Assembly: GCA_009783465.1 (NCBI GenBank)
Contig: WRDM01000001.1
Location: forward strand, 1-64,000
DNA from: Phycisphaerae bacterium
GTDB taxonomy: Bacteria; Planctomycetota; Phycisphaerae; SM23-33
Direction: 5' to 3'
Length of the DNA: 64,000 bases
Shown here: piece by piece, positions 2,807-61,947 of the stretch
Position numbering within the stretch: the stretch's first letter is position 1
Layout of the letters: each line of letters opens with the position of its first letter
Position numbers and translations under genes: made by a program
The notes under the pieces: generated by a model
Databases searched by the model: none
Told to the model about the DNA's origin: nothing
The model's input: the letters and a program-made list of their open reading frames with translations, nothing else

Positions 2807-2844
2807 GATGTATTGCTCGTGAATCCGTTACGTTATCGTGTGGT

Positions 2845-28738: not shown

Positions 28739-28741
28739 CGC

Positions 28742-31822: not shown

Positions 31823-31879
31823 CGTTTTACTCCCAAAAGCCACACAGGGCCTGCATAACTCAACGGCAAATGGTGCCGT

Positions 31880-35290: not shown

Positions 35291-35333
35291 GACGGCAGAA
35301 CACGGTTTTCGTCGCTCCATGGTGAAGCCGTCC

Positions 35334-39536: not shown

Positions 39537-40349
39537 ATGATGATGGTTACGCGAAAACTGGCAATGGTGTTAACGGTCGGTGTGGCTTGTTTGGCGCTGG
39601 GCGGATGTTACGATCCGCAGGCGGTCAACGAGTTTCTGAAAACCTCGCAATCGCCCGTGTCGTCGGAGGAGTATGTTTTCCTGCCTCCCGACGCGCTGTC
39701 CATTACGTCGAGGCAAGTGCCCGAGATCAACGGGATCACACAGGTCATCCGGCCTGACGGCAAAATCAACCTGCCGCTGATTGGCGAGATCACGGTCGCG
39801 GGCAAAACCCCGCGCCAGGTTGAACTGGCGATGATGGAGGCGGCCAAGGAGTATTACGAGCAGACCGACGCCGTCGTCACGGTCGCGGCGTATAACTCGA
39901 AAAAATTCTACGTGTTCGGACAGGTCGGCACGCCCGGGCCTCAGCCGTACACCGGTCACGACACGCTGCTGAACGCGTTGGCGATCGTTCAGCCGACATA
40001 CCTGGCCTGGCAGCAGCGGATCATCGTCGTTCGCGGCAGCCGGCCTCAGGATGGCGGGTACGCGCCCAGCGTCACGCCCTCTGAAGAGGATTTGACCTAT
40101 TTCCGCCGCTGGGGCGAATGGCGTGAAACGCCCGAGCATCCTCGCGAGACGATGATCGTCAACATGTGGGCCATGGTCAAGCACGGCGACCTCTCGCACA
40201 ACGTGTACCTCCAGCCCAACGACGTCATCTACGTGCAGGCCCATCCGTTCGCGAAGGTGGGCTTGACCTTGCAGGCGCTGCTGTTCCCGGTCCAGCCGGT
40301 CCTGGAAGCGGTGCGTGCGCCGGCCAATATCTCCAACGCCGGGAAGTAG
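39537..40349 (+). CDS. Polysaccharide export lipoprotein (Wza-like)
   Basis: A 270-residue outer-membrane polysaccharide export protein. A lipoprotein signal with lipobox LGGC (Cys24), then the poly-export domain (VIRPDGKINLPLIGEITVAG, KTPRQVELAMMEAAKEYY) and one SLBB-like region (KKFYVFGQVGTPGPQPYTG). It is shorter than Wza (about 380), so the C-terminal membrane helix may be replaced by the LQALLFPVQPVLEAV end. First gene of the polysaccharide locus. Confidence 0.88.
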   Translation: MMMVTRKLAMVLTVGVACLALGGCYDPQAVNEFLKTSQSPVSSEEYVFLPPDALSITSRQVPEINGITQVIRPDGKINLPLIGEITVAGKTPRQVELAMMEAAKEYYEQTDAVVTVAAYNSKKFYVFGQVGTPGPQPYTGHDTLLNALAIVQPTYLAWQQRIIVVRGSRPQDGGYAPSVTPSEEDLTYFRRWGEWRETPEHPRETMIVNMWAMVKHGDLSHNVYLQPNDVIYVQAHPFAKVGLTLQALLFPVQPVLEAVRAPANISNAGK

Positions 40350-40516
40350 CCCCGGCCGCGGGTGTGACGAGACGCTGGCTGTCGGATTGTCGGGCGCGGC
40401 ATGTGAAAAATGCGCTTGACAATCTGACAGTCCGTCGAACTTGTCGCGGATACAGGAAGTATCACAGGAAGTATTGAGGCACCGAAACTGGACACGCAGG
40501 GGCACGAGGAGGCCCA

Positions 40517-42220
40517 ATGGGTAAACCGAAAACACCGCGCGAAGTGCTGCACATGTTGTTCCGCCGCAAGACCCTCTTTTTGCTGGGCGCGGCGTTTTTC
40601 TCCATCATCGTGCTGTGGGGCGCGCACTGGATGCCCCTCAAGTACACCGCCTCGCTGACCTTCGAGCGAACCAACGACGTCGGAAGCACCAGCCGAATCA
40701 AAGGCGCGGGCACGTTCGACGAAATCCGGCCGATATTGAAAACGCGTCTGGGCGGCCCGACGGTATTGAAGGAAGCGCTCCAACGGGACGAGATCGGTCT
40801 GGCAAGGACGTTCCCCCGCAACGCGGATGGCACGCTCACGTCCGAAGGGCATGCCAAGATGGATACCCTGGTCCGCGAGATTCAGCCGGCCCTGCGGATC
40901 CTCTTCATCACCAGCAGCGACCTGATGGACGTGGTATCCATCGAGTTCGAACACGCCGACCGCGACGTGGCGGAGCGGCTGCCCAGGACCCTGTTCGAGA
41001 TGTTTCAGACCTCCACGATCAACGAACTCAACGAGCGTCTGAGCCATTCCAAAGACGGCTTGGAAAAAGAACTCGACGCCGAAAAGGCCAAGCTCGAACA
41101 AGCCCGCATGAAGAAGAATCGCTTTGAGCTGGAGTACCAGGACTCCATGCCCCATCTTCCCACGGGACTCCAGGACCGCCTGAACACGCTGAACAAGGAC
41201 CTGGACCGGGTCGAACGCAACCTGGCGCTGGAACGCAGCCGCCTGGACAAATGGAAAGAGATCGCCGGCGGCGAACGACTCGCCGGAGACCCGACGTCGC
41301 AGCCGGCCGACGCCGACCCGGAACCCGACGAATACCTCATGGGCATCAATCCAAAGCTTGGGCAGTTGCAGGATAAGCTGAAGGATATCGAGGAAAATCT
41401 GCGATTGGCCAAGCTGGCGGGCATGACCGAAAAACATCCGACCTACCAGCAGATCGTGCGACTGATCGAGGAACTCAAAAAACAGATCGAGGCGGAACCG
41501 GAGAAGATCAGGATACAGGAACGGTTTATCAAGGCGAGCGCTCCGTCTGGCATCACCCTGCCGCAGATGCAGGTGGCCGACGCCGAGATGCGCATCAAGA
41601 ACTTTACCGACGAACAGACCGAGCTGGTGCAGGCGATCAACCGGACGAAGGAGTTGATGAATAACTTCCTCAAGATTCGTCAGGATTACCTGGCCCTTTG
41701 CCACAACGAGCAGACCTGCCAGGAGACCGTCGATCGCCTGCAGAAGTCGTACCAGACCGTGGAGGCGGACCTGAAGGCCGAACTGGCCAAACGACGTACG
41801 ATGATCAAGGTCGTCCAGGAGCCGCAGAGGCAATACCTACCTTCTTCGCCGAAACTCTCGCTGATCCTGCTCGTGGCGATCGTCGGAGGCCTGGCCTTCG
41901 GCGGGCTGCTGGTATTCCTGGCCAACGGGATGGACCGCACGGTCGGCACCACGGATGAGGCGATGAAGTATTTCAATATCCCCCTGCACGGCGCGGTGGG
42001 CGAGATTTCCACGCCGAAGGACCGCACGTGGCGGCGGGTGAAGCTCTGGGTCATCACGCCGATCATCGCCATCGTCGTGGTGACCGTGATCGGGGCGTCC
42101 TGCCTGGACACGGTGTTATGGCTCAAGCAGCCCACCAAGCACAAAGAGGAGTGGCGCAAGGCGCCCATAACGTACGTGGTGGACCAGGTGAAAGGCGTCT
42201 TTTCTTCGTCCAAGATATGA
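40517..42220 (+). CDS. Polysaccharide chain-length determinant (Wzz/GumC-like, PEP-CTERM locus type)
   Basis: A 567-residue inner-membrane protein: helix near 20-38, a periplasmic part with long coiled coil (about 170-430), then C-terminal helices near 450-470 and 505-527. It resembles exosortase-locus chain-length regulators in which the tyrosine kinase is a separate protein, here the gene at 43093. It sets polymer length together with the flippase and ligase. Confidence 0.83.
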   Translation: MGKPKTPREVLHMLFRRKTLFLLGAAFFSIIVLWGAHWMPLKYTASLTFERTNDVGSTSRIKGAGTFDEIRPILKTRLGGPTVLKEALQRDEIGLARTFPRNADGTLTSEGHAKMDTLVREIQPALRILFITSSDLMDVVSIEFEHADRDVAERLPRTLFEMFQTSTINELNERLSHSKDGLEKELDAEKAKLEQARMKKNRFELEYQDSMPHLPTGLQDRLNTLNKDLDRVERNLALERSRLDKWKEIAGGERLAGDPTSQPADADPEPDEYLMGINPKLGQLQDKLKDIEENLRLAKLAGMTEKHPTYQQIVRLIEELKKQIEAEPEKIRIQERFIKASAPSGITLPQMQVADAEMRIKNFTDEQTELVQAINRTKELMNNFLKIRQDYLALCHNEQTCQETVDRLQKSYQTVEADLKAELAKRRTMIKVVQEPQRQYLPSSPKLSLILLVAIVGGLAFGGLLVFLANGMDRTVGTTDEAMKYFNIPLHGAVGEISTPKDRTWRRVKLWVITPIIAIVVVTVIGASCLDTVLWLKQPTKHKEEWRKAPITYVVDQVKGVFSSSKI

Positions 42221-42226
42221 GGATGA

Positions 42227-43081
42227 ATGTATCTAAAGCAATACAACCTGCGTGAGTTTCCTTTCGCGATTTCGTGCGACGAGCGGTACTTCTTCGAAAG
42301 TCCCATCCACGCCGAGGCGCTGGCGAACATGATGTACACCGTCCAGCAGCGCAAGGGCATGGTCCTGATCACCGGCGAGGTCGGATCGGGCAAGACGTTT
42401 TTGAGCAATCTGCTGGCCGCCCGGCTGGGGTCGGGCTGCCTGTCGGTGCTGGTGAAGAATCCGCCGCAGTCGGGCAAGCAGTTGCTTCGCGCGTTGGCGC
42501 AGCGGGTGGGCATGAGCGTCCGCGCGTCGATGGACAAGCTGGATTTGATCGAAGAACTCGAGCAGCATCTGGTTCGTATGCAGGCTAGGGGCAGGCTGGT
42601 GGCGCTGATGCTCGACGAATGCCAGGACCTCACGCCGGCGAGTCTGGAAGAGATCCGCCTGCTGTGGAACTGGGAACATCACGGGCACCGCCTGGTGCAG
42701 ATTGTGCTGACGGGTCAGCCGGAGTTACGGCAGCGGATCCGCCAGCCTCACTGGGAACCTCTCCGCCAGCGCATCGTGCTGACGTATCACCTGGGGCACA
42801 TGCAGCCATCCGACACGGTCGCGTACGTGCCGCATCGGCTCCGCGTGGCCGCCAACGAGGGCGGCCCGACGGTGATGTTCACGCCCGAGGCGTTGCAGGA
42901 GATTCACGCCGCCACGGACGGCATTCCGCGGCTGATCAACGTGTTGTGCGACAACGCCCTGTTGGTGGGATACGCCAAGGGCGTCGACGTGCTCGGGCGT
43001 GAGATCGTGGCGGAAGTGTTGCGGGATATGACATGTTGGGATTTGCGCGCGTCGTCAGCGTCGGCCGCGTTTTCGGAGTAG
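42227..43081 (+). CDS. ExeA/GspA-like AAA ATPase of an exosortase-type locus
   Basis: 284 residues. Walker A GEVGSGKT (50-57), LMLDECQDLTP as Walker B, then TGQPELRQRIRQ and GIPRLINVLCDNALL, typical of the ExeA-type ATPases found in XrtA/PEP-CTERM polysaccharide loci. Its start MYLKQYNLREFPFAI is the family start. It follows the chain-length gene by six bases. Its precise role in export is not established. Confidence 0.87.
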   Translation: MYLKQYNLREFPFAISCDERYFFESPIHAEALANMMYTVQQRKGMVLITGEVGSGKTFLSNLLAARLGSGCLSVLVKNPPQSGKQLLRALAQRVGMSVRASMDKLDLIEELEQHLVRMQARGRLVALMLDECQDLTPASLEEIRLLWNWEHHGHRLVQIVLTGQPELRQRIRQPHWEPLRQRIVLTYHLGHMQPSDTVAYVPHRLRVAANEGGPTVMFTPEALQEIHAATDGIPRLINVLCDNALLVGYAKGVDVLGREIVAEVLRDMTCWDLRASSASAAFSE

Positions 43082-43092
43082 CAGGAGTTCGC

Positions 43093-43971
43093 ATGGCCAA
43101 TGTATTTCGAGCAATGAAGCGGGCCCAGCAGGAACAGCATGATGTTCCGATGGCGGCGCCGACGTCGGCGCCGGTGGCGATGGAGTGGGACGAGCCCGTG
43201 CACGCCGCCGTGGCGGCGTACGATCCGCCGGTGCCCGAAGCCCGCGTGGTGCAGACCCCCGTGCTGGGCATCCCTGCCGGCGCGGACACCCAGCTGCTTT
43301 CGGGCGGGCATTACCCGATGCTGTCGGCCCATCACGACCGAGGCGGCACGATCGCCGAGCAGTTCCGGCACATCCGCACCAGCCTGATGTCGCAGTACCC
43401 CGACCAGCGGTTCGTTCTCATGGTAACCTCCGCCGATCCGGGCGAAGGCAAAACCGTCAGCACCGGGAACATGGGCATCATCCTCGCCGAACGCCAGGAC
43501 CGCACCACGCTGGTGATGGACTGCGACCTGCGACGCGCGTCGCTGACCACGCTGTTCCGCTCCAAAAAAATGCTGGGCGTGACCGACATGCTGCGAGGCC
43601 AGGCCACGCTCGCGCAATGCATCCAGCGAACCATTTACCCCAATCTGTACGTGGTGACCGCGGGCACGGGCGAGCGCGGCGAGATCGCTGAACTGCTCGC
43701 CAGGCCCGAGTTGGAAGATATCATCAGCCAGGCGCGGACGCAATTCGACCACGTGCTGATGGACGCGCCTCCGGTGAACTCCGTCGCCGACGCCGGCGTG
43801 CTCGGCCACGCCGTCGGCGAAGCCCTCATGATCGTCCGCATGAACAAAACCAACCGGGAATCGGTGGAGCGGGCGGTCCGGCTTCTCAAGGCCGCCAACG
43901 TAAAAATCGCCGGCATGGTGCTGACGCATCAGAAATACTTCGTGCCGAATTACATTTACAAGTATTCGTAA
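43093..43971 (+). CDS. CpsD/CapB-type tyrosine-protein kinase
   Basis: A 292-residue bacterial tyrosine kinase cytoplasmic unit. TSADPGEGKTVSTGNMGIIL (Walker A at 114-121), LVMDCDLRRAS (Walker A'), VLMDAPPVNSVADA (Walker B). The C-terminus VPNYIYKYS has only three tyrosines, fewer than most clusters. It partners with the chain-length regulator. AGGAG precedes the ATG at 43093. Confidence 0.88.
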   Translation: MANVFRAMKRAQQEQHDVPMAAPTSAPVAMEWDEPVHAAVAAYDPPVPEARVVQTPVLGIPAGADTQLLSGGHYPMLSAHHDRGGTIAEQFRHIRTSLMSQYPDQRFVLMVTSADPGEGKTVSTGNMGIILAERQDRTTLVMDCDLRRASLTTLFRSKKMLGVTDMLRGQATLAQCIQRTIYPNLYVVTAGTGERGEIAELLARPELEDIISQARTQFDHVLMDAPPVNSVADAGVLGHAVGEALMIVRMNKTNRESVERAVRLLKAANVKIAGMVLTHQKYFVPNYIYKYS

Positions 43972-43999
43972 CCCGCACGCGAAAACCAAAGCAAAAAAC

Positions 44000-44105
44000 G
44001 GCTGTAGGCTGTAGGCTATAGGCTGTGGGCGCAGGCTTAGGATGGATTAGGCCTACTGATTCATCAGCCCGCGCCTGCAGCCTACAGCCCACAGCCTACA
44101 GCCTT
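44000..44105. repeat. Tandem GGCTGTA inverted repeat, family E variant
   Basis: Left arm GGCTGTAGGCTGTAGGCTAT, right arm AGCCTACAGCCCACAGCCTA. The loop is about 30 bases. It ends directly at the next gene's start codon and leaves no space for a classical Shine-Dalgarno. Confidence 0.85.
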
Positions 44106-44107
44106 CT

Positions 44108-45304
44108 GTGAAAAAACTGCTCTACATCTCGCATCGGCCCGCGTATCCGCCTGATAAGGGCGAGCGCGTGCGGGCGTATCATCAGATCCGCGAGTTGACG
44201 CGGCGGTTCGAGGTGACGCTGGCGACGCTTGGGCACGGCCCCGCCGACGGGGCCGATCTCGGGCCGCTGCCGACGTGGTGCCAGCATGTCGTCGTCGCGC
44301 CGGCGGCGGGCAAAGCGGGCGTCGTGCTTCATCCCTGGCGATTGGCCCGCGGGGCGTCGCTGACAGAACTGTGGTTTTCCAGTCGAACGATGACGGCCGC
44401 GCTGACTGACCTCTGCCGACAGACGCCATTCGATATCGTCGTGGGCTACTGCTCCAGCGTGCTGCCGTACATGCAGGCCGTGCACGCCCCCGTGCGCGTG
44501 CTGGACCTGGTGGACATCGACAGCGCCAAGTGGAGCAGCTACGCCCAGGCCGCCCGCGGGCCGATGCGTTGGCTGTACCGCCGCGAATCCACCGCCGTCG
44601 CGGCGCTCGAACGGCAGGCCCTGTCGAGTTGCCAGGCCGTCCTCGTCACCAGCGACAGCGAAGCCGCCCTCCTGCCCCCCGCCGGCAACGTCCACGTCGT
44701 CGGCAACGGTGTCGACAGCGACTACTTCAGCCCCGGCCATCCCGTCGGCGACGACCATCCCTCGATCGTCTTCACCGGCACGATGGATTACCGCCCCAAC
44801 GCCGAGGCGGTCTGCTGGTTCGCGGGCGACGTCTGGCCGGCGCTGCGTGAGCGCTGGCCGGCGCTGCAATGGCACATCGTCGGTCGCGATCCGCTGCCGC
44901 CGGTGCGGGCGCTGAGCAAGCTGGCGGGCGTCCACGTCACCGGCTCGGTGCCGGACGTTCGCCCGTTCATGCGAACCGCCAGCGTCGCCGTCGTGCCGCT
45001 CCGCACCGCGCGAGGCATACAGAACAAGATTCTCGAAGCCATGTCGTGTGGCCGGCCCGTCGTCGCGACGGGCGAGACGCTCAAGGGCATCGACGCCCGC
45101 GTCGGACACGAGGTTTTTCAGGCCGACGAGCCGACGCAGTGGGTCGAGCGCGTCTCCGCGCTGCTGGCGGACGGCCCGCGTCGCGAGGCCTCCGGCGTGG
45201 CGGCACGGACGCGGATTCTGGAGCACTACTCCTGGCCCGCCCAGTTGCGGGGCATGGTCTCGCTGCTGGCGGACCTGTGCGACGAAAGGGGCGGACATGG
45301 GTAA
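44108..45304 (+). CDS. Glycosyltransferase (PEP-CTERM/exosortase-associated sugar transferase type)
   Basis: A 398-residue GT-B enzyme. MKKLLYISHRPAYPPDKGER and VLDLVDIDSAKWSSYA match the exosortase-associated sugar transferase family. C-terminal part: IVFTGTMDYRPNAEAVCWFA, GRPVVATGETLKG. It starts with GTG at 44108 right behind a large stem, so initiation may be affected by that structure. Its stop overlaps the flippase gene. Confidence 0.87.
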   Translation: MKKLLYISHRPAYPPDKGERVRAYHQIRELTRRFEVTLATLGHGPADGADLGPLPTWCQHVVVAPAAGKAGVVLHPWRLARGASLTELWFSSRTMTAALTDLCRQTPFDIVVGYCSSVLPYMQAVHAPVRVLDLVDIDSAKWSSYAQAARGPMRWLYRRESTAVAALERQALSSCQAVLVTSDSEAALLPPAGNVHVVGNGVDSDYFSPGHPVGDDHPSIVFTGTMDYRPNAEAVCWFAGDVWPALRERWPALQWHIVGRDPLPPVRALSKLAGVHVTGSVPDVRPFMRTASVAVVPLRTARGIQNKILEAMSCGRPVVATGETLKGIDARVGHEVFQADEPTQWVERVSALLADGPRREASGVAARTRILEHYSWPAQLRGMVSLLADLCDERGGHG

Positions 45305-46856
45305 CGCCCGCGTCTACGCCCGCAACGTGTTCGCCAACTGGTTCGGCTATGCTGCCAATCTGGCCGTCATGTTTTTCCTCACGCCCTTCGTCATCACCAC
45401 GCTGGGCGACAAGGTCTACGGCGTCTGGACACTGCTGGTCCTGCTGACGGGCTACATGGGCCTGGTCGAACTGGGCGTCCGCAACGGCATGGGGCGGTTC
45501 GTCAATTATTACCTGGGCAAGAAAGAGCCCGACAAGGTTAACGGCATCATCTCCACGGCGATGGTGATTTTTCTCGGCTGCGGCGTGCTGCTGCTGATTG
45601 CCGCGTTGACGCTGGGGCATTTTTTCGGACAGTTGTTTCCCAAGACGCCGCCGGAGATGCTTGGCAGCGCCCGGCTGGCGATTTTGTTGATCGCGGCCAA
45701 TTTGTTCATTTCGTTTTATTGCGCGGCCTTTTTGCAGGTATTGGCCGCCCACGAGCGGTTCGAGATTTCCAACGGCATCAATCTCGGCGTGCTGCTATTG
45801 CGCGCGACGGCGACGGTGGTGTTGTTGCGGTACGAGGGAATGGACGACGGTGGCCGCGTGCTGATGCTGGCGTGGATCACGCTGGGCGCGGGCGTGATTC
45901 AGTTGGTGGCGCAGGCGGGGGCGGCGTGGCGGATCTTTCCCGCGCTGCGGATTTCGCCGAAGCTGGCGTCGCGGGCGTGTTTCCGCGAGCTGTACGCGTT
46001 CAGCATCTGGGCGGCGGTCAGCAGCGTGGCCTTGCAGGTGCTGTATTGGTTCGACACGCTGATCATCGGCGTGGTCCTGGGGCCGGCGATGGTGACGTTG
46101 TACTCCATCGGCGGCATGTTCGTCATTTACGGACGCGGGCTGGTCACGGAATGTTCGACCCCGTTCGCCCCGCAGATCATCAAGGATTGTGCCACGCGGA
46201 ATTTCGCCAACATCCGCCAATTGGCCGCCCGGGCCACCGCGATGGTCATGGGCCTGAGCGTGCTGCTGTTCCTGGGTTTTGTGTTTTTCGGCGAGGAGTT
46301 CATCCGGCTGTGGATGATGGACAGCAAAAAGGGCGACGAGTACGCGACGTTCACGAAGTATCAGGACAGTTACAAGGTGATGGCGGTGTTGGCGTTGGCG
46401 CAGCTGGCATCGACCTCGACGATCGTGCTGGGGCACGTGTTCAGCGGACTCAACCGCGTTCGGTTGTCGGCGATGCTGATGGTGGCCCAGGCGGTCGTGA
46501 ACGTGGCCTTGACGCTGACGCTGCTGCTGGTGGGCCTTGGCCTGGTGGGCGTGGCGGCGGGCAGCGCCATTCCGCGGGCCCTGTTCGCGATCCTCAGCAC
46601 GGTGATCGTGCTGAACTGGATCGGTTCGGGATTCAAGGAATTCGCGAAATCGTATCTGGCGTGGTGGGCGGCCCTGGCGGCGGCGTTTGGGGCAGCGTGT
46701 TGGGTGGTGGTCACGTGGATGCCCCACGGCACGTGGCTGTGGTTTGCCGCCAAGATCGCTGTGGCCGTCGCGGTGTATGCTCCGCTGGTCTGGTTCTTCC
46801 TGCTGACCCCCGACGAACGCGCCATGATCAAAGCCAAACTGCCGGGACGGAGATGA
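45297..46856 (+). CDS. Polysaccharide flippase (Wzx-like, MOP superfamily)
   Basis: A 519-residue integral membrane protein with about 12-14 helices, starting MGNARVYARNVFANWFGYAA. FFLTPFVITTLGDKVYGVWT and the long alternation of hydrophobic segments fit a Wzx-type undecaprenyl-linked oligosaccharide flippase. The ATG at 45297 overlaps the previous stop by eight bases and has AAAGGGG upstream. Confidence 0.88.
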   Translation: MGNARVYARNVFANWFGYAANLAVMFFLTPFVITTLGDKVYGVWTLLVLLTGYMGLVELGVRNGMGRFVNYYLGKKEPDKVNGIISTAMVIFLGCGVLLLIAALTLGHFFGQLFPKTPPEMLGSARLAILLIAANLFISFYCAAFLQVLAAHERFEISNGINLGVLLLRATATVVLLRYEGMDDGGRVLMLAWITLGAGVIQLVAQAGAAWRIFPALRISPKLASRACFRELYAFSIWAAVSSVALQVLYWFDTLIIGVVLGPAMVTLYSIGGMFVIYGRGLVTECSTPFAPQIIKDCATRNFANIRQLAARATAMVMGLSVLLFLGFVFFGEEFIRLWMMDSKKGDEYATFTKYQDSYKVMAVLALAQLASTSTIVLGHVFSGLNRVRLSAMLMVAQAVVNVALTLTLLLVGLGLVGVAAGSAIPRALFAILSTVIVLNWIGSGFKEFAKSYLAWWAALAAAFGAACWVVVTWMPHGTWLWFAAKIAVAVAVYAPLVWFFLLTPDERAMIKAKLPGRR

Positions 46857-46885
46857 CGCAGGGAAACCGCGCCGAAATGGCTTAT

Positions 46886-47003
46886 TTTTCGGCTGTAGGC
46901 TGTGGGCTGTAGGCTGTGGGACAGGTTTATGAAGGATTTGGCCTAATCATTCATAAGCCTACCCCTACAGCCCACAGCCTGCAGCCCACAGCCTTTTCGC
47001 CGA
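46886..47003. repeat. Tandem GGCTGTA inverted repeat, family E variant
   Basis: Left arm GGCTGTAGGCTGTGGGCTGT, right arm CTACAGCCCACAGCCTGCAG, spacer of about 40 bases itself palindromic (TTTATGAA/TTCATAAG). It interrupts the otherwise tight operon after the flippase. Confidence 0.85.
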
Positions 47004-47055
47004 AGAACGGACGATTTAGATGCGATGGCCCACCGTCGACAGCCGATAAGTAAAT

Positions 47056-48375
47056 ATGCGAAACGTCCTGATGTTGACATTTTTTTGGCCGCCGAAGTAC
47101 CAGTCGGGCATCTGGCGGCCTATGAAGTTCGCCAAGTACATGCCCCAGCACGGCTGGAAGCCGACGGTGCTGACCGCGAAATTTCCGCTCGACAAGGACG
47201 CGCCCTGCGTGCGCGAAGACAACATTCCGCCGTGCGAAGTGATCCGGGTCGAACCGAACTCTGACCGCACGCTGGCCAGAGCGATGAGCTGGGCCGTCTG
47301 GCCGATGGCAAAACTCCTCGGCAAAAACCGGCAGTGGGTCGAGGATGCGCTCGAGTGGCGGATGGCATGGTCGCTCCAGTGGCCTGACCGAGGCACGTCG
47401 TGCAACCGTTGGATGATACCCATGTTGTCCAACGCGATGGACCTGCTGGCGGGCGACCGGTTCGACGCGGTGTACGTCACCGCGCCGCCGGTGCAATTGA
47501 CCCTGGTGGCCGCCGTGCTGGCGATGCTGCGCCCGAAGCCGATCATCATGGATCTGCGCGACCCCTGGACACAGGAGTTTCAGTACACCCAGCGTGGGTT
47601 TCGCCGCGGGGTGGATGAGTGGGTCGAAAAGAGCTGCCTGCGGCGGTGCGACCGCATCGTCACCGTCACGCCGATGCAAACGGCGGATCTATCGAGGCTG
47701 TACCCGGAACTTACCGGCAAACTGCGGTGTATCACCAACGGGTTCGATCCAGAGGATATCCTTCCCCGGAACGTTCGTGTCCCGGACGGACGGTTGATCG
47801 TGACGTACTGCGGAATGTCGTATGAAAAACTGGACCAGGTGACGCAGGCCGTCCGCCTGGCATGCCAGCGCCGCGAAGCGTTTCGCGAGCAGTTCGAAAT
47901 GCGTTGGATCGGCCCGCAGCCGCGCCACCCGTCCGCGGAGGAAGTGGCCCCCATCAAATACCTGGGGATTTTGCCGAAAAACGACGCGATGCGCATCACG
48001 CAGGAAACCGATGTGTTGTGGTTCGAAGTGCCGATCAACGGCCACAGCCGATATATCTATCCCGGAAAAATGTTCGAGTACATGGTCATGGACCGCCCCA
48101 TTATCGGCACGATTCCCGAGGGGGCGTGCATGGAGAAGCTGCTGCATCCGATGGGCTATTGCCGCTTCTGTTATTCGCGCGATCCGGAAAAAATGGCGGC
48201 ATTGCTCGATCAGGTGTTCGACGACTGGCAGGCGGGCAAGCTGGCCGGCGGCGCGAGCGCGGAGGCGCGGGCGGAACACGTCCGCCGATTCCGCCGCGAC
48301 GTGCTCACCGGGCAGTTATGCGACGTACTAAATGAGGTGACCCGTGGCAGCCGACGGCGACATGACTGTCCTTGA
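47056..48375 (+). CDS. Glycosyltransferase, GT4-like
   Basis: 439 residues. The N-terminal half starts MRNVLMLTFFWPPKYQSGIW and carries AVYVTAPPVQL and IIMDLRDPW. The C-terminal half has IVTYCGMSYEKLDQVTQA and YPGKMFEYMVMDRPIIG, typical of GT4 enzymes that act on lipid-linked intermediates. It overlaps the next gene by 32 bases. Confidence 0.85.
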   Translation: MRNVLMLTFFWPPKYQSGIWRPMKFAKYMPQHGWKPTVLTAKFPLDKDAPCVREDNIPPCEVIRVEPNSDRTLARAMSWAVWPMAKLLGKNRQWVEDALEWRMAWSLQWPDRGTSCNRWMIPMLSNAMDLLAGDRFDAVYVTAPPVQLTLVAAVLAMLRPKPIIMDLRDPWTQEFQYTQRGFRRGVDEWVEKSCLRRCDRIVTVTPMQTADLSRLYPELTGKLRCITNGFDPEDILPRNVRVPDGRLIVTYCGMSYEKLDQVTQAVRLACQRREAFREQFEMRWIGPQPRHPSAEEVAPIKYLGILPKNDAMRITQETDVLWFEVPINGHSRYIYPGKMFEYMVMDRPIIGTIPEGACMEKLLHPMGYCRFCYSRDPEKMAALLDQVFDDWQAGKLAGGASAEARAEHVRRFRRDVLTGQLCDVLNEVTRGSRRRHDCP

Positions 48376-49477
48376 GCCGGCCTCGGCGAAATCCGCCGTG
48401 TGCGCGGGCTGTGCGTCGCCGCTCCCCGCGGCGGGCGGAGAGGCTGCGCGCGGCAAATGTCCCGCGTGCGGGCTGCGGTGGAATGCCGCCGCCGAAGGCC
48501 GAGATCACACCGAGGATATCGCCAACTGCCGCGAGCCACTCGCGTGGCTTCGCGATCGGTTGGCCGGGGCGGAAGAGGTTGCGATCGACACCGCCAACGG
48601 CGATTGGCCGTTGCACCGCGATCCGACGACGACGCGGTGGATGTTCACGCCCCGCGCGCTGCTGCACACGATCGAACGCGGCGGCGGCTGGAGCGCGGAA
48701 CTGCGAACGAGCGGCTGGCGCAGCCGCCTGCCCCGCCTGCGCTGCCGCGTGCGACGCGGCGAAGGGCCCGCGTATACGGGCGGCATCAGCCTGGTGACGT
48801 TGTCCTGCGATCGCGACGCGCAGGAGACGATGCGGATGGTGCTGGAACTGGCCCCCGCGTTCGCCGAGACGGTCGTGCTGTTCGACGGCGAGGCCGTGCC
48901 CGCGTCCCTGGAGCCGCTGGCGGGCATGTCGCGGGCGCCGAATGTGAAGCTGTTCGCCAGGCCGTTGGGAAAGGATTTCGCCGCGCAGCGCAACGCGGCC
49001 ACCCGATTGGCGTCGCGCGACTGGGTGCTTCACCTGGACGCCGACGAGCGGCCCTCGCCGGCCATGCTGGCGGCGCTGCCGCATCTGACCGCCCTGGGCG
49101 AGCGCCACGGTTTTTTGACGATCGGCGTGCCGCGCGTCACGCTGGTGGACGGCCACGCCCTGCCGGGCGACGCGATGGACGACCCACAGTACCGCCTCCA
49201 TCACCGCCTCGAGCGCTGGGTGCGGCCCGTGCACGAGCGGCCGCGGTCGTTCGTACAAAACTGGCGGCGGGCATGGATGGTGGATTATCGCCCGGACGTG
49301 TATTTTCACCATTTGACCCAGACGCGATTTTTGGCTGAAAAAAGCGAATTTTATAATGCGATTCACGAAGGCGCCGGCGACATCGACGGCCTGCGGCAGC
49401 TTCACGACGCGCCGCGGCACGACGACGACCCGGGCGACATCGAGGCCCAGGGCCCGACAACGAGAGACGATTCATGA
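48344..49477 (+). CDS. Zinc-ribbon plus GT2-like glycosyltransferase
   Basis: 377 residues. Residues 20-48 form a CxxC...CxxC zinc ribbon (CAGCASP and CPACGLR). Then comes a piece like the tail of a methyltransferase (WMFTPRALLHTIERGGGW), and from about residue 150 a GT2-like domain (ISLVTLSCDRDAQE, DWVLHLDADERPSP with the metal-binding DxD). The GT2 core is short, so activity is uncertain. The GTG start at 48344 follows GAGGTG. It overlaps the next gene by four bases. Confidence 0.7.
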   Translation: MAADGDMTVLEPASAKSAVCAGCASPLPAAGGEAARGKCPACGLRWNAAAEGRDHTEDIANCREPLAWLRDRLAGAEEVAIDTANGDWPLHRDPTTTRWMFTPRALLHTIERGGGWSAELRTSGWRSRLPRLRCRVRRGEGPAYTGGISLVTLSCDRDAQETMRMVLELAPAFAETVVLFDGEAVPASLEPLAGMSRAPNVKLFARPLGKDFAAQRNAATRLASRDWVLHLDADERPSPAMLAALPHLTALGERHGFLTIGVPRVTLVDGHALPGDAMDDPQYRLHHRLERWVRPVHERPRSFVQNWRRAWMVDYRPDVYFHHLTQTRFLAEKSEFYNAIHEGAGDIDGLRQLHDAPRHDDDPGDIEAQGPTTRDDS

Positions 49478-50613
49478 GACTATGCATCGCGACACGAACC
49501 GCCTTTGTCAGCGGCGGCGAGACCATGCTGCTGCGGTTGGCGAAGGAGTTGGCCAACCTGGAGCACACGGTGTGCGTCGTCTGCCCGGCCGGCTCGAAGG
49601 CGTACGAATTTTTCGCCGACAACAAATTGACGGTCGAGGGCGTCGATCTGCACCTGACGGACTGGCGTCATCCGCTACGGTTTTTCGGCAGTGTTCGCGC
49701 GTTGCGGAAGATCATGAGGACGCACCGCGTGGAGGTCGCCCACGCCAACGATCTCTCGACGATTCAGCCGCTCGGCTGTGCGTGCCGCAAAGAAGGCATT
49801 CCCGTGGTGGTGCACGTCCGGCAGACGGTCAAGCCTGGCGGGCCCGAGTGGTACTTCAAGTACGGCGCGGATCATGTCATTGCCGTGTCGGAGTACATCA
49901 AGCGTCACCTGGTGGAGACGTCGCCGGCGGTGTTCGAGGGCAGGACGAGCGTGTCGCTGGACGGCATCACCGTGGGTCCGCCCGCCGACGCCGACGCCAA
50001 ACGCCTCGCCCGGCAGACGCTGGAGATTCCCGAGGACCGCTTCGTATTCCTCTATGCCAACCAGTTCAACGAGGTCAAGGGGCTGCCGGATCTGATCCAG
50101 GCCGTCGCGCTGCTGCCCGAGGCCCTGCGAAGCCGCCTGCTGCTGTGCGCGGTGGGCGACGACGTGCAGACCGGCGGCGTGTATCGCGAAAACATGATGC
50201 AGTTGGCCCGCGACAAAGGCGTGGCGGAGTGGATTCGTTTTCCGGGCTATCGTCGCGACGTGCCCACGTGGATCGCCGCGTGCGACTGGTGCGTCTCGCC
50301 GTCGCTGGTGGAGCCTCTGGGCACGACGGTCATCGAGTCGCTCTCGTCGGGCAGGCCCGTGATCGGCACCCGCGTCGGCGGCATTCCCGAGATGGTGCTG
50401 GAGAATCAGACGGGGCTGCTGGTGGACGGCGGCCAGCCCGAGCAGTTGTCGGCGGCGATGGCGAAGGCGTTGGCCCAACCGGAGCTGGCCGTCACGCTGG
50501 GCCGCGGCGCGCACGAGTTCGCGCGGCAACAGTTCACCATCGAGCGGCACGCGCAGGAGATGCTCGCGATTTATCGGCTCGCGATAGCCAGCCGGGCGAA
50601 GGGAGGCCGCTGA
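49474..50613 (+). CDS. Glycosyltransferase, GT4 family
   Basis: 379 residues. GGETMLLRLAKELANL, then FLYANQFNEVKGLPDLIQAV and SLVEPLGTTVIESLSSGRPV with the catalytic E-x7-E motif, and GGIPEMVLENQTGLLVDGG. A GT-B retaining enzyme that probably adds a sugar to the repeat unit. Overlaps both neighbours (ATGA and TGATG). Confidence 0.88.
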   Translation: MRLCIATRTAFVSGGETMLLRLAKELANLEHTVCVVCPAGSKAYEFFADNKLTVEGVDLHLTDWRHPLRFFGSVRALRKIMRTHRVEVAHANDLSTIQPLGCACRKEGIPVVVHVRQTVKPGGPEWYFKYGADHVIAVSEYIKRHLVETSPAVFEGRTSVSLDGITVGPPADADAKRLARQTLEIPEDRFVFLYANQFNEVKGLPDLIQAVALLPEALRSRLLLCAVGDDVQTGGVYRENMMQLARDKGVAEWIRFPGYRRDVPTWIAACDWCVSPSLVEPLGTTVIESLSSGRPVIGTRVGGIPEMVLENQTGLLVDGGQPEQLSAAMAKALAQPELAVTLGRGAHEFARQQFTIERHAQEMLAIYRLAIASRAKGGR

Positions 50614-51785
50614 TGTCGAACGCCCACACCGACCCCTGCACGGACCGCCCGCGATTGCTGGCGTTTTCGCAGGTCTATCCGCCCCACGTCGGCGGGTCGG
50701 GGCTGTGGATGTACCGCCTCGTGCAGGCCTGGCCAGGCCCCGTGACGACGCTGTGCCAGGAACATCCACTCTTCCGCACGGACGAGCGCCAGGGCGACAA
50801 CCGGATCCGCCGCATCCCGTTCAATTTCCCCAGTTGGGCGCCCGACACGCTGACCTCGCTGAAGTCCTATTGGACGGCGACGCGGGCCCTCAAGCGGGAG
50901 ATCCGCGCCGACAGGCCAGCGGCTGTGTTGTGCGGCCGGGGCATCCCCGAAGGCGTGGCGGCACGTTGGGTAGGCCGTGTGCCGTACGTGAGCCTGGCGC
51001 ACGGCGAGGAGATCACGACGTGCCTGACCTCGCGGAAGTTGCAGTCCCTGCTGCGTTATTCGTACCGCGGCGCGCGGTTGGTTATCGCCAATTCCAGCAA
51101 CACGCGGCAGTTGGCGATACAGGCCGGGGCGAACCCCGACCGGTGCATCGTCATTCCGCCAGGCGTGGACTCGGCGGCGCTGCGTCCCAGGCCCGCCGGC
51201 GAGCTGCCCTGGCCGATTCCGCCGGGCGCGATGGTGGTCGTCACGGTCGGTCGACTGGAGCCTCGAAAAAATCAGGTCGGCGTGATTCACGCAGTCGCCA
51301 AACTGGTCGCGGAGGGATATAACATTCATTACGTGATCGCCGGCACGGGCGTCGGCAAGGACGCCGTGGAACGGGCCGTCGCGGACACGGGCATGGCCTC
51401 CCACGTGACGCTGGTGGGCGAGGTCTCCGACGCCGACGTCCGCGCGCTGTACCATCGGTGCGACGTCTTCGCCATGCCCAGCGTCCAACACGGGCCTTCG
51501 ATCGAAGGATTCGGCATCGTCTTCCTGGAGGCCGCCGCCGCAGGAAAACCCGCCATCGCGGGCACCGCGGGCGGATCGGGCGAAGCCGTCGTCCACGACA
51601 CCACAGGCCTCGTCGTCGACGGAACCGATATCGACGCGATCTATTCCGCGTTGGCGACGTATTACGATCATCCTGAACTTCGGCACGCGCATGGCCGAAA
51701 GGGGCAGGAGCGGGCACAACAGGAGTTTGACTGGGCTATCGTGGCCAAACGGGCCAACGACGCCATTCTGGCATCCATACGATGA
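50613..51785 (+). CDS. Glycosyltransferase, GT4 family
   Basis: 390 residues starting at an ATG overlapping the previous stop (TGATG). LLAFSQVYPPHVGGSGLWMY in the acceptor domain, VTVGRLEPRKNQVGVIHAVA at the donor-domain start, and EGFGIVFLEAAAAGKPAIAG carrying E-x7-E. A second in-frame start much further upstream lies inside the previous gene and is rejected. Confidence 0.88.
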   Translation: MSNAHTDPCTDRPRLLAFSQVYPPHVGGSGLWMYRLVQAWPGPVTTLCQEHPLFRTDERQGDNRIRRIPFNFPSWAPDTLTSLKSYWTATRALKREIRADRPAAVLCGRGIPEGVAARWVGRVPYVSLAHGEEITTCLTSRKLQSLLRYSYRGARLVIANSSNTRQLAIQAGANPDRCIVIPPGVDSAALRPRPAGELPWPIPPGAMVVVTVGRLEPRKNQVGVIHAVAKLVAEGYNIHYVIAGTGVGKDAVERAVADTGMASHVTLVGEVSDADVRALYHRCDVFAMPSVQHGPSIEGFGIVFLEAAAAGKPAIAGTAGGSGEAVVHDTTGLVVDGTDIDAIYSALATYYDHPELRHAHGRKGQERAQQEFDWAIVAKRANDAILASIR

Positions 51786-53086
51786 AGCATTTTATTTTCC
51801 TAGCCCTGACGACGCTGATCTGTTCCTACAGGTCCATCACCGACCCCTTCTGGGGCGTGGCCCTGTATTACCTGTGGAGCGTTCTCCGCCCGCAGTTCGT
51901 CTGGGACTGGGCGCTGCAAGACTACCCGGAGATGCGGTGGTCGCTCATCGCCGCCCTGGTCACGATGGTCGCGACGGTCGTTCGGTTCGGTCATCTCGAC
52001 CAGCCCAAGGTCAACAAAAATTTCGTGCCGCTGCTTCTGGCATTCGGCATGTGTATTTTGGGCAGTTATCTCACCGCGCGCAACGCGGAGGTGGCCGCCG
52101 AGCCGGGTCGGGAATACGCCAAAATTCTCGTCATGATGATGCTCGCGGCGCTGCTGATCACCCATGCCAAGCACCTTCGCGTTCTGGCGTTTGTCATATT
52201 CGGCTCGTTGATCTACATCATTTACACCATCAACTTCATGTACGTGTTCGAGGGCAGGCTCCAGGTGTTGACCACCGGGTTCTGCGGCCTGGACAACAAC
52301 GGCGCGGCCCTGATGATGGCGATGGTGATTCCGTTCTGTTATTATCTGTTCCAGGCGGAGCATCGCTGGTGGCGGTGGGGATTCCTGATCTGTCTGCTGC
52401 CGGCGGCGCACGCGGTGATGTTGACGTACTCGCGTGGCGCGATGCTCAGTTCGATTCTGGCGTGCGCGGGCATGGTGATCATGCAGAAGAAGCATCGCTG
52501 GAAAACGATCGGCATGGCGTTGGTGATGGGCTTCCTCATGCTGTCGATGGCGGGCGAGAGCGTGCGCGAACGCTTCCTGTCCATCAAGGAACGCGATCAC
52601 GACGAGTCGGCGCAGTCGCGGTTCGGCAGTTGGGCCGCCGGCATGCGAATCGCCTTCGACAACCCCGCTTTCGGCGTCGGGCTGCGAAACAGCAACGGCA
52701 TCATCTACATGTACGGCGCCGACATGGAAGGCCGAACCGTCCACAATCTGCTGATCCAGATGGCCGCCGACAGCGGGCTGCCCTGCGTGACCATCTACCT
52801 GCTGCTGTACTTCTCGGCGATGATCTGGGCATGGAAAGGCGCCACCCTCGTCCGAAACCACACCACCTCCGAACAACGGTGGCACCACAACATCTCGCTG
52901 GCGTGTTTCTGGAGCCTGGGCCTGTTCCTGGTCGGTTCGTTCTTCCTGTCGATGGAGACGTTCGAGCCGCCCTACCTGCTGATCGTGATGGCCGCCACGT
53001 CGCAGAAACTCGCCGAAGGCATGACCGACGCGACGCCCGAAGCGGAAATCCTGGAAGCCATCCCCGAGGCGGAAGCGGCGTCGTGA
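51782..53086 (+). CDS. O-antigen ligase / Wzy-like polymerase (exosortase-associated type)
   Basis: A 434-residue integral membrane protein with about ten helices. FCGLDNNGAALMMAMVIPF and MLTYSRGAMLSSILA are typical of the O-antigen ligase superfamily, and the HNLLIQMAADSGL loop follows. It resembles the putative O-glycosylation ligase of exosortase A loci. ATGA overlap with the preceding glycosyltransferase. It is the likely polymerase or ligase of the locus. Confidence 0.87.
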   Translation: MKHFIFLALTTLICSYRSITDPFWGVALYYLWSVLRPQFVWDWALQDYPEMRWSLIAALVTMVATVVRFGHLDQPKVNKNFVPLLLAFGMCILGSYLTARNAEVAAEPGREYAKILVMMMLAALLITHAKHLRVLAFVIFGSLIYIIYTINFMYVFEGRLQVLTTGFCGLDNNGAALMMAMVIPFCYYLFQAEHRWWRWGFLICLLPAAHAVMLTYSRGAMLSSILACAGMVIMQKKHRWKTIGMALVMGFLMLSMAGESVRERFLSIKERDHDESAQSRFGSWAAGMRIAFDNPAFGVGLRNSNGIIYMYGADMEGRTVHNLLIQMAADSGLPCVTIYLLLYFSAMIWAWKGATLVRNHTTSEQRWHHNISLACFWSLGLFLVGSFFLSMETFEPPYLLIVMAATSQKLAEGMTDATPEAEILEAIPEAEAAS

Positions 53087-53137
53087 AGCACGAAAAACCG
53101 CATAAAACGGACACGGTAGCATCGTTGCAAGAATTTT

Positions 53138-53284
53138 CGCTCATTCGACTTCGCGAAGACCGAGCGGGATTACGCGGATTGAAAAATTAAGTTTTTTCCA
53201 TGCGTATCACACGTTCCGTACGGTAATTCTGTAATCTGTTAATCCGTGTAATCCCGCTCGGTCTTCGCGAAGTCGAATGAGCGC
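53138..53284. repeat. Long inverted repeat, family D copy 2
   Basis: CATTCGACTTCGCGAAGACC on the left and its complement on the right, with GGGATTACGCGGATT and AATCCGTGTAATCCC between. It separates the ligase from the next gene (gap 53087-53397). Confidence 0.85.
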
Positions 53285-57447: not shown

Positions 57448-58714
57448 GTTTCTTCGCGTTCTGCATCTGCGCGTGGTTCGCGGCACGGGCGGCGGGCCTG
57501 ACAAAACCACACTTCGTGGCTGTGCCTGGCTGCGACGTCATGGGCATGACGCGCAGGCGTTTTACATGCTCGACGCGCGGGAGGACACCGGGCGTCTCCA
57601 GCAACTCGCCGCCGAGCTGGGCGTACCCATGCACGTTGCCCTGGAACGTTCGCCGCTTTCGCCCGGCACGCTGTGGCGGCTGCGGCGGGTGCTCGCCAGC
57701 GGGCCTTTCGACATCCTGCACACGCACGACTATAAGTCCAACGCGATCGCGCAGTTGGCGCGCGTGGCGCACGGCGGGCGCGTAATCGCGACCGCGCACG
57801 GCTATAATCAAACGACGCGCCGCGAGGCGTTGTATTATGCGCTGGAGCGGGCGTGCTTCCGGCATGTGCGGGCGATTATCTGCCCCACGCGCGACATGTG
57901 GCGGCTGCTGCGGGGTTTCGGCCTGCCGGCATCGCGGCTGCACGTGATCCCCAACGGCATCGAAACGACAGGCCGCGCCAAGCCGAAGGAACGTAGCACG
58001 GGCGTCCTTGCCGCGACGAAGCGGAGCGAAGACGGGTCGCCCGCGATAACCGATCCACTGGCCTCGATGACAGAGGAGGCCAAACCTTCGCCTCCGGAGC
58101 GTGGGCAAGATGCCCACGCGACACGCGGGCGAGACGCCCGCGACACGTTGGTACGTCTGTTGTATCTCGGTCGGCTGAGCGCCGAGAAGGACGTCGCCAA
58201 TCTGCTCACGGCGGCGGCGCGGCTGCGGGAGCGTGGCGTGCGATTCGCGTTGGCCATCGCCGGCGACGGGCCGGAACGGGCGGCGCTGGAATCGCAGGCC
58301 CGCGAGACGAATTTGCTGTCCGACGACCCGGCCTCGCCCGCCCGCGTGGAATTTCTGGGCTTCCGCGCGGACGTCGACACCCTGCTGGCCGAGGCGGATA
58401 TTCTGGTCAATCCCAGTTGGACCGAGTGCATGCCCAACAGCGTGCTGGAGGCGATGTGGGCCGGCGTGGGCGTGGTCGCGACCCACGTCGGCGGACTGTC
58501 GGAAATGATCCGTCACGGCGAGCAAGGCCTGCTGTGCCCGCCACGCGACAGCGACGCCCTCGCCAACGCGATAGCCCAACTGGCAACCAACCGCGACGAA
58601 CGAGGCCGCATGACAAAAAACGCCGCCGCCCGCGTCGACGCGGAGTTTACGTTCGAAAGCCGAATGCAACGGGTCGTGCGGTTATACCGAATGGTGTTGG
58701 AAGAAAGCCACTAG
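57437..58714 (+). CDS. Glycosyltransferase, GT4, with a REP insertion in the hinge
   Basis: 425 residues. The acceptor domain contains GGPDKTTLRGCAWLRRHGHD and FDILHTHDYKSNAIAQLA; the donor domain restarts with LLYLGRLSAEKDVANLL and has WTECMPNSVLEAMWAGVGVV. Between them, residues about 186-238, lies an in-frame REP insertion with RSTGVLA and RGQDAHATRGRDARDT. It falls in the interdomain linker, where length is tolerated. Its last codons and stop (EESH, then TAG) are within the following family E repeat. Confidence 0.87.
   Translation: MVREFLRVLHLRVVRGTGGGPDKTTLRGCAWLRRHGHDAQAFYMLDAREDTGRLQQLAAELGVPMHVALERSPLSPGTLWRLRRVLASGPFDILHTHDYKSNAIAQLARVAHGGRVIATAHGYNQTTRREALYYALERACFRHVRAIICPTRDMWRLLRGFGLPASRLHVIPNGIETTGRAKPKERSTGVLAATKRSEDGSPAITDPLASMTEEAKPSPPERGQDAHATRGRDARDTLVRLLYLGRLSAEKDVANLLTAAARLRERGVRFALAIAGDGPERAALESQARETNLLSDDPASPARVEFLGFRADVDTLLAEADILVNPSWTECMPNSVLEAMWAGVGVVATHVGGLSEMIRHGEQGLLCPPRDSDALANAIAQLATNRDERGRMTKNAAARVDAEFTFESRMQRVVRLYRMVLEESH
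57991..58149. repeat. REP insertion in the glycosyltransferase hinge
   Basis: CGTAGCACGGGCGTCCTTGC on the left, then GTGGGCAAGATGCCCAC (about 58100-58116) and GCGGGCGAGACGCCCGC (about 58125-58141) on the right. The spacer of about 60 bases is not REP-like. Confidence 0.8.
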
Positions 58715-59727: not shown

Positions 59728-61947
59728 ATGACTCGCACGAGGCCTGAATTTATTGTTTTCAGCGACGACTGGGGGCGGCACCCGTCGAGTTGTCAGCATT
59801 TGTTTGGCCGCATCAGCCGACGGCACCGGGTGCTGTGGGTGGACACGATCGGTCTGCGCAGCGCGAAGGCGGACTCGTTCACGCTGTTTCGGGGTCTCGA
59901 AAAATTGCGCAAATGGGCGCGCCCGTTGCGGCGGGTGAGCGAGAACATGTGGGTGCTCGCGCCGATCATGTTGCCGGCGGCGGGCGAGGATTTTCTCGCG
60001 CGCGTCAACGGCAGGCTGGTCGCGACGGCGATTCGTCGCGTGACGACGCGGCTGGGCTTTCGCGACCCGGTGATGTTCACGTCGGTGCCGACGGCGGTGG
60101 ATTACGTCGGACAACTGGGCGAGTCGCGCGTCGTCTATTACGTCACGGACAATTACGCCCTCTGGCCGGGCGGAAACGCGGAAAAAATCCGCGCCGCCGA
60201 CCGCCGACTCCGCGACGCCGCCGACGTGGTCTTCCCCTGCACGCAGGCGCTATGCGAAACCGCGTGCGAAAAAAGCACGCTCCTGCCGCACGCGGTGGAC
60301 TTCGACCACTTCACCACGCCCGCGCCCGAGCCGCCCGACCTGGCAGCGATTCCGCATCCGCGGGTCTGCTTTTTCGGCCTGATTTACGAAAAAATTGACC
60401 TGCCCCTGCTGGCGAAGCTGGCGGCGGCAAGGCCTGACGTACACGTCGTCCTCATCGGTCCCGTAAAGACGGACGTCTCCATCCTTGCGCCGCACGCCAA
60501 CGTGCACCTGCTGGGTCCAAAACCCTACGACAAGCTGCCAGGCTACCTCCAGGCCATGGACGCCGTCGTCGTGCCCTACGTGCCCGATGATGAAAAACTC
60601 CAGTGCGGGCCTCTGAAAATCCGCGAGTGCCTCGCCGTCGGCAAGCCCACCGTCCTGCAAAACATTCCCGACCTGCGGCAGTTCGCCGACGTGGTGCGGC
60701 TGTACGATTCGCCCGATCAGTTCATCGCGCAGGTGGACGCGGCGTTGGGATGTAGCACGGGCGTCCCGCCCGTGAGTCGCATGGGCGTCTCGCCCATGCT
60801 ACGTTCTGATGCCCTGGCCAACGCGATGCGCCAGCGCGTCCAAGGCCAAACCTGGGACGCCCGCGCCGACCTCGTGCTGGACACGCTCGCCAAGCTCGAG
60901 CCTGCCGCCGCGCCGACAGCGGCCAAACGCCTCACCATTTCCCTCGCGCGGGAAGTGCCCGAGTGGTCGCCCCTGCTCGATCAGCAGGCCGCCGGCGTGT
61001 TTCACGATCCGCGATGGGGTGTGGTCATGCGGCAGGCATACGGCAACGAGCCGTATTACCTCACCGCGAGCGTCGGGCGCGAGCCTGTCGCCGCGTTGCA
61101 ACTGGTGCGACAGGCCAGCACGGTCTTCGGCACGCGGTTGTGCAGCCTGCCGTATTTCGATTCCGCCGACATCCTCAGCCGCGACCCCGACGCGACGGCC
61201 ATGCTGCTGACACAGGCGGCGAACCTGCGCGAAAAGACGGCCTCCCGGTGGGTCGAGCTGCGACTGTCCAACCCGCTGCCGAAACTGCCGACGCGCGACG
61301 ACAAAGTCACCATGCACCTGCCCCTGCCCGCCGACCCCGCCGTGCTGTGGGACCAACTCAAAGCCAAAGTCCGCAACCAGATCCGCAAAGCCCAGAAGGC
61401 CGATCTGCGGGCCGTCCACGGCGGCGGCGAATTGCTCGAACCGTTCCACACGGTCTACCTGCGAACGATGCGCGACCTGGGCAGCCCCTCGCACAGCCGG
61501 ACATTCTTCGAACTGATCCTGCGGCACTTCCCCGAAGCCGCCCGCGTCTTCGTGGTCTACCAGGGCCGACGCCCGCTGGCCGCCTCGCTGACTCTCCGCG
61601 ACCGCCACGCCCTCCGCGTCCCCTGGGCAGGCAGCGACTGGCGATTCAGCCCCCTCTGCGCCAACATGCTGCTCTACTGGGCCATGCTCGAACACGGCTG
61701 CCGCGACGGCGCCCCGACGTTCGACTTCGGCCGAGGCACACGCGACGGCGGAACCTACCAATTCAAAAAACAATGGGGCAGCATCGAAGTCCCCCTCTAC
61801 TGGCAATACCTGTTAGCCGAAGGCGACACCCTCCCCGAACTCCGCCACGACAGCCCACGATACCAAAAGGCCGTCGAAGTCTGGAAACGGCTGCCGCTCA
61901 CCACCGTACGCCACCTCGGGCCGCTGATTGTTCGGAAGCTGAGCTGA
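59728..61947 (+). CDS. Glycosyltransferase-FemAB fusion (exosortase-associated type)
   Basis: 739 residues. Residues 1-385 are a GT-B enzyme (VFSDDWGRHPSSCQHLFGRI, VVYYVTDNYALW, CFFGLIYEKIDLPLL, CGPLKIRECLAVGKPTV). Residues about 400-739 are a FemAB/GNAT-fold protein (FHDPRWGVVMRQAYGNEPYY, KAKVRNQIRKAQKADL, FDFGRGTRDGGTYQFKKQWG) of the kind found in XrtA/PEP-CTERM loci. A REP hairpin pair is translated as residues 342-360 inside the glycosyltransferase part. The fusion is not a known standard arrangement to me. No separate FemAB gene is present. Confidence 0.83.
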   Translation: MTRTRPEFIVFSDDWGRHPSSCQHLFGRISRRHRVLWVDTIGLRSAKADSFTLFRGLEKLRKWARPLRRVSENMWVLAPIMLPAAGEDFLARVNGRLVATAIRRVTTRLGFRDPVMFTSVPTAVDYVGQLGESRVVYYVTDNYALWPGGNAEKIRAADRRLRDAADVVFPCTQALCETACEKSTLLPHAVDFDHFTTPAPEPPDLAAIPHPRVCFFGLIYEKIDLPLLAKLAAARPDVHVVLIGPVKTDVSILAPHANVHLLGPKPYDKLPGYLQAMDAVVVPYVPDDEKLQCGPLKIRECLAVGKPTVLQNIPDLRQFADVVRLYDSPDQFIAQVDAALGCSTGVPPVSRMGVSPMLRSDALANAMRQRVQGQTWDARADLVLDTLAKLEPAAAPTAAKRLTISLAREVPEWSPLLDQQAAGVFHDPRWGVVMRQAYGNEPYYLTASVGREPVAALQLVRQASTVFGTRLCSLPYFDSADILSRDPDATAMLLTQAANLREKTASRWVELRLSNPLPKLPTRDDKVTMHLPLPADPAVLWDQLKAKVRNQIRKAQKADLRAVHGGGELLEPFHTVYLRTMRDLGSPSHSRTFFELILRHFPEAARVFVVYQGRRPLAASLTLRDRHALRVPWAGSDWRFSPLCANMLLYWAMLEHGCRDGAPTFDFGRGTRDGGTYQFKKQWGSIEVPLYWQYLLAEGDTLPELRHDSPRYQKAVEVWKRLPLTTVRHLGPLIVRKLS
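60751..60804. repeat. REP insertion in the glycosyltransferase-FemAB gene
   Basis: TGTAGCACGGGCGTCCCGCC, then ATGGGCGTCTCGCCCATGCT ending in ACG. This is a doublet of the CGTAGCA-ended subfamily, read as STGVPPVSRMGVSPML. Confidence 0.9.

Follow-up and report, generated by a model that had tools for sequence, protein, structure and literature searches.

A gene in the phycisphaeral genome studied here encodes a glycosyltransferase (GT) fused to a FemAB-like transferase, and comparisons with relatives indicate that the REP doublet within this gene is a passenger and not the cause of the fusion. The gene lies in the window, i.e., the 64,000-nucleotide stretch of contig WRDM01000001.1 that was analyzed (Table 1), which belongs to a 2.48-Mb draft assembly of 70 contigs that is approximately 70% complete. 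We favor, with considerable confidence, a two-step account: an indel would have fused two neighboring genes, and a REP would have been inserted later and independently. The likeliest mobilizer of this REP is a REP-associated tyrosine transposase (RAYT) that is itself embedded in frame in the valyl-tRNA synthetase gene (valS).

Table 1. Coordinates and supporting evidence for the features of the window
Feature	Position	Strand	Evidence or remark
valS (valyl-tRNA synthetase)	1..2827	-	TIGR00422; cut by contig end, 3' part on contig C30
REP element in valS, in frame, third there	726..856	.
REP doublet 3' of RAYT (valS orientation), in frame	1454..1506	.
RAYT, in frame inside valS	1514..2101	-	NF047646, PDB 4er8
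REP doublet 5' of RAYT (valS orientation), in frame	2112..2164	.
REP element in P-type ATPase gene (26585-28738, +), in frame	28010..28126	.
XrtA-type exopolysaccharide locus	39537..53190	+	Upstream of fusion; export protein, chain-length determinant, ATPase, tyrosine kinase, glycosyltransferases, O-ligase-like protein
REP element in neighboring GT4 gene (57437-58714), in frame	57993..58147	+	Between the two domains of the gene; left arm degenerate
Fused GT4-type glycosyltransferase/FemAB (XrtA-associated) gene, 739 aa	59728..61947	+	Open frame, domain matches, four fused homologs
Glycosyltransferase half, residues 1-395, GT-B fold, MshA-like	59728..60912	+	PF13692, Foldseek 3c48, alignments
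REP doublet, 51 bp, in frame (about 17 residues), GT C-terminal segment	60752..60802	+	GTAG foot to CTAC foot
FemAB half, residues 402-739, FemX-like fold	60931..61944	+	TIGR03019, Foldseek 9wqx/1xe4, AlphaFold pLDDT mostly >90

A fused GT-FemAB gene in an exopolysaccharide locus

The 739-codon frame is open throughout, with no internal stop. In a Pfam profile search, its N-terminal half was assigned to GT group 1 (PF13692; 29.3 bits versus a cutoff of 27), with a match to PF00534 below the cutoff, and its C-terminal half matched Acetyltransf_6/FemAB. Residues 421 to 738 also matched TIGR03019 (pepcterm_femAB) with 281.7 bits against a curated cutoff of 260.35, and FemAB homology begins at about residue 402 in the alignments. 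The reading of this open reading frame as a GT-FemAB fusion in the initial annotation was therefore upheld by both profiles and by the fused homologs described below. Foldseek related the N-terminal half to MshA (3c48) and the C-terminal half to FemX-type aminoacyl transferases (9wqx/1xe4). The AlphaFold model, built from 31 sequences, had a mean pLDDT of 82.8, with high confidence in both halves and values of <50 at residues 343 to 397; with a pTM of 0.53, the placement of the two halves relative to each other is not confident. On the basis of the fold's resemblance to FemX, the FemAB half is predicted to carry out aminoacyl or acyl transfer.

The surroundings of the gene also suggest an exosortase-type setting. 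Genes for export, chain-length determination, an ATPase, and a kinase lie upstream of the fusion in an XrtA-type exopolysaccharide locus, although most matches in this locus were below the NCBIfam equivalog cutoffs. Three exosortases are encoded in the genome, all on contigs other than that of the fusion. The C-terminal half resembles the TIGR03019 family in its score and in its probable location in an XrtA-type polysaccharide locus, but it is fused N-terminally to a GT4-type glycosyltransferase, whereas the other members compared were mostly single-domain proteins. A literature search of open-access journal papers found no paper on FemAB together with exosortase.

Functional coupling of the GT and FemAB steps, as suggested by the initial annotation, is plausible from gene arrangement, because the two genes adjoin or overlap in several unfused relatives and are truly fused here. 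A single polypeptide with both enzymes and a flexible linker might glycosylate and then aminoacylate or acylate one surface-glycan or lipid-linked substrate. The fusion is accordingly a modest but useful clue that the GT and FemAB steps of exosortase-type loci may share a substrate.

Origin of the fusion

Full-length fused homologs occur in three genomes of the same order that belong to another family (G035, G036, and G037; 46 to 51% identity) and in one genome of the same class from a further family (G062; 50% identity). The linkers of the fused genes are homologous and of similar length. A sequencing or assembly artifact masking a stop between the domains might be suspected from the fragmented draft (70 contigs, 70% complete), and the initial annotation had raised this concern. 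However, no stop was found inside the frame, which is open in five independent assemblies, including that of the window, with homologous linkers; we rejected this origin as extremely improbable.

In G006, a member of the same family as the window genome, the GT and FemAB genes are separate and overlap by 4 bp (GTGA), with a Shine-Dalgarno-like AGGAG upstream. Because of this overlap, a small indel is enough for either fusion or fission. Separate but adjoining genes were also seen in Candidatus Auribacter (Auribacterota) and in isolate R3-B46. In the first step of our account, neighboring GT and FemAB genes of an exosortase-type locus would have become one frame through such an indel where they overlapped.

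The fused gene is genuine and recurs among relatives. In neither the GT tree nor the FemAB tree do the fused sequences fall on one side of a branch, and at least two changes are forced, so that either several fusion events or at least one reversal took place. A single fusion ancestral to the clade, later split in G006 and G044, has a probability that we place just short of even. Such a history agrees with the similar linker lengths of the fused genes and with a GT clade that unites the window, G062, and the f2 genomes with only three unfused sequences inside it (98). The two changes forced in both trees and the grouping of the window GT with the unfused G006 and G044 (97 in the GT tree) count against it. 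The trees do not choose between these histories, because one fusion and one split also amount to two changes.

The REP doublet as a probable late insertion in the GT half

The doublet within the fused gene (GTAGCACGGGCGTCCCGCCCGTGAGTCGCATGGGCGTCTCGCCCATGCTAC) is exactly 51 bases long and consists of two inverted REPs, with GTAG at positions 60752 to 60755 and CTAC at positions 60799 to 60802. Its fold comprises two hairpins (z = -5.7). These feet and hairpins, together with the 19 exact genomic copies versus none in a control (see below), substantiate the earlier recognition of a REP at this site. The doublet encodes approximately residues 342 to 359, and its peptide (CSTGVPPVSRMGVSPMLR) is an insertion of 16 to 18 residues that is unique to the window in an alignment with fused and separate homologs. 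A conserved C-terminal GT motif (MR..V...TWDARA) follows the REP peptide, and FemAB begins some 40 residues later. The REP thus belongs to the C-terminal part of the GT, with FemAB about 40 residues away, whereas the initial annotation had placed it in the linker, immediately ahead of the junction.

The further proposal that the REP joined the two genes, for which recombination or slippage involving REP copies could be imagined, did not survive comparison with relatives. The REP does share the open reading frame and is no more than about 40 codons away from the junction. However, the four fused relatives G035, G036, G037, and G062 have no REP core at the locus, an outcome that the initial annotation had itself named as a refutation. 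In addition, the REP is off the joint, and the 4-bp overlap of the separate genes in G006 requires no mediator. G006 is also an example of what the initial annotation proposed to look for, namely, a relative with separate genes and no REP. Moreover, a second FemAB gene of the same genome carries a REP and is unfused. Given the REP-free fused relatives, we rejected the REP as the fusion agent and assign this scenario only a marginal probability.

In the second step of our account, the 51-bp doublet would have been inserted into the GT part after the fusion and independently of it. The landing place is a low-confidence, probably flexible stretch that leads from the GT core to FemAB. The insertion would have been tolerated because its length is a multiple of three, its reading frame is stop-free (STGVPPVSRMGVSPML), and the receiving stretch is probably flexible. 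It belongs to a REPIN-like population of the same genome that seems to have been active recently.

An abundant REP population in coding frames

The assembly contains 612 REP cores, compared with 1 in a reversed control. The 48-bp doublet sequence of the fused gene was found in 19 exact copies and in 52 copies within three mismatches (none in the control). Because copies are identical, recent spread of the element is suggested. With a GTAG foot, imperfect palindromes, an inverted pair, and a high copy number, the repeat belongs to the GTAG-tagged, REPIN-like elements.

We classified 42 REP clusters in 321 kb of the genome using a home-made codon-usage model. Nineteen of these clusters (45%) were flanked left and right by the same open coding frame, versus 52.5% of random positions. 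Where coding sequence on the same strand flanked the cluster on both sides, the frame was open in 19 of 27 cases (binomial P = 9e-5 against an expectation of one third). One or two single-core matches, such as that at C2:19906 (MurD-like motif), look like chance. Besides the elements in Table 1, a REP element lies in frame within the FemAB domain of the second, unfused FemAB gene (contig C5, L141:5873-7606, +). This longer element includes an exact copy of the same 48-bp doublet, and the adjacent PfkB kinase gene (L141, 7697-9163) has another exact copy in frame. In this genome, REPs are not extragenic but frequent in-frame passengers of enzymes.

Two other repeat observations were made in the window. 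Downstream of the fusion, a REP element (62323-62457) separates putative QueD-like (61953-62315, -) and QueE-like (62461-63093, -) genes. A second, intergenic repeat family with GTTAACTCGTTAACTGG units, partly in inverted pairs, occurs at positions 22311-22396, 28728-28813, 31876-31926, and 35304-35389.

A RAYT embedded in frame in valS

The 942-codon frame at the start of the window was identified as valS by TIGR00422 (692.6 bits, over the cutoff). Its 3' remainder is found at the end of contig C30 (L127), and the gene is whole in relatives. Inside this frame is a RAYT that scored 87.9 bits against NF047646, and 82.3 bits within the valS frame (cutoff, 80), and that also matched the TnpAREP structure (PDB 4er8). 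It has the motifs PNHVH (HUH) and YVAQNP (Tyr), both invariant in a six-row alignment. The RAYT and its REP flanks form a unit that is wholly in frame with valS, so that the transposase is an internal part of the synthetase frame and not free-standing. It was the sole NF047646 match found in the approximately 70%-complete assembly. The genome also has a free-standing IS200-like Y1 transposase without REP flanks (L061; G000:C23:13560-13904, -).

This in-frame, REP-flanked RAYT is the likeliest candidate for mobilization of the doublet in the fused gene. Alternatively, the REPs may owe their movement to another RAYT, missing from the assembly, the copy in valS being only a relic. We regard this as rather unlikely, even though the genome is only about 70% complete and many relatives hold several standalone RAYTs. 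Against a relic, 58 of 59 relatives have the HUH motif and most have the Tyr motif, and dN/dS was approximately 0.08 to 0.15 in most measurable pairs, although one pair reached 0.44. The REP doublets that directly flank the valS RAYT also argue for its involvement, as does REP abundance, which tracks the valS-type RAYT subfamily within the family: the median was 246 cores in genomes with the subfamily and 10.5 in those without it (P = 2e-5, uncorrected for relatedness).

Embedded RAYTs in relatives

With the window genome included, 17 genomes that span four families have an in-frame RAYT at this valS site. The site is a hairpin between ...YLRYPL and THVTVATTRPETMLGDT; in G005, a RAYT occupies a second valS site. 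In full-length examples, the ValRS domains are complete around the RAYT, and the host proteins presumably still work. Members of the RAYT subfamily also lie in frame in DinG-type helicases, N6/N4 and type ISP methyltransferases, a DUF1156 protein, and EtfB, the last in an electron transfer flavoprotein gene of G025 (L164). The RAYTs of the DinG-type helicases L163, L166, L169, L171, and L172, from several genera of one family, follow a VVMTSATL motif, and the insertions look as if they occupy one site.

Frames of at least 450 aa enclose 31 of the 32 strongest RAYT matches in the class. We considered whether such long frames were an artifact of GC-rich DNA. This was rejected, since the remaining RAYTs in those genomes mostly occupy frames of approximately 160 to 350 aa and host domains are present on both sides of the inserts.

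A strict single origin of the valS RAYT was not supported, as the valS label requires at least two changes on the RAYT tree. Between G294 and G143 (L156 and L157), divergence at fourfold sites was 0.19 of 74 for the RAYT versus 0.55 of 83 for valS (P = 3e-6). This difference hints at lateral transfer into the same site or at conversion.

These observations point, by a narrow balance of probability, to a RAYT lineage of this phylum that lives as an in-frame domain of host enzymes. It would have entered the hairpin loop of the ValRS editing region repeatedly, as well as one DinG-type site, and would seed stop-free REP pairs across the proteome. Habitually embedded in frame, such a RAYT could be kept because its clean loss would be impossible without damage to the host gene. 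REP pairs seeded from it would then land in frame in many proteins, the GT-FemAB fusion among them.

Comparison with known elements

Intragenic REPs are already known, including those in tRNA synthetases (Di Nocera et al. 2013, PMC3733652), as are REPINs (Bertels and Rainey 2011, PMC3116915). The elements described here share with GTAG REPs and REPINs (PMC3733652, PMC3116915) the GTAG foot, imperfect palindromes, inverted pairs, hundreds of copies, and a genomic RAYT. The known ones, however, are mostly intergenic, whereas about 45% of our sampled clusters are in frame, with little avoidance of coding sequence. Palindromic elements of Rickettsia likewise lie in frame within unrelated proteins (Ogata et al. 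2000, 2002, as reviewed in PMC10969869), but their sequence differs, as judged without alignment, and here there is a candidate transposase that is itself embedded in frame.

The valS RAYT shares the HUH and Tyr motifs, the flanking REPs, and an above-cutoff family score with NF047646 and TnpAREP (PDB 4er8). Members of NF047646 are usually, although not by definition, free-standing, whereas those described here are internal domains of ValRS, DinG-type helicases, methyltransferases, or EtfB. A search of open-access journal papers returned no paper on RAYTs together with valyl-tRNA synthetase and no description of an in-frame RAYT in ValRS, and a search of a plasmid collection gave no match. In the principal survey of this superfamily of transposases, unexpectedly long proteins were excluded (PMC6006769), and surveys that drop unusually long RAYT proteins would miss the embedded group.

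Inteins offer a further parallel, as in-frame genetic parasites at conserved sites of essential genes. Here, however, there was no sign of protein splicing, and four ValRS-RAYT frames had no Pfam match to an intein or Hint domain. If the embedded lineage is as we propose, it would have an intein-like lifestyle without protein splicing, and its residence in an essential gene across many genera would explain the persistence of the REP population. The in-frame REPs would also constitute a natural experiment on how much insertion proteins tolerate.
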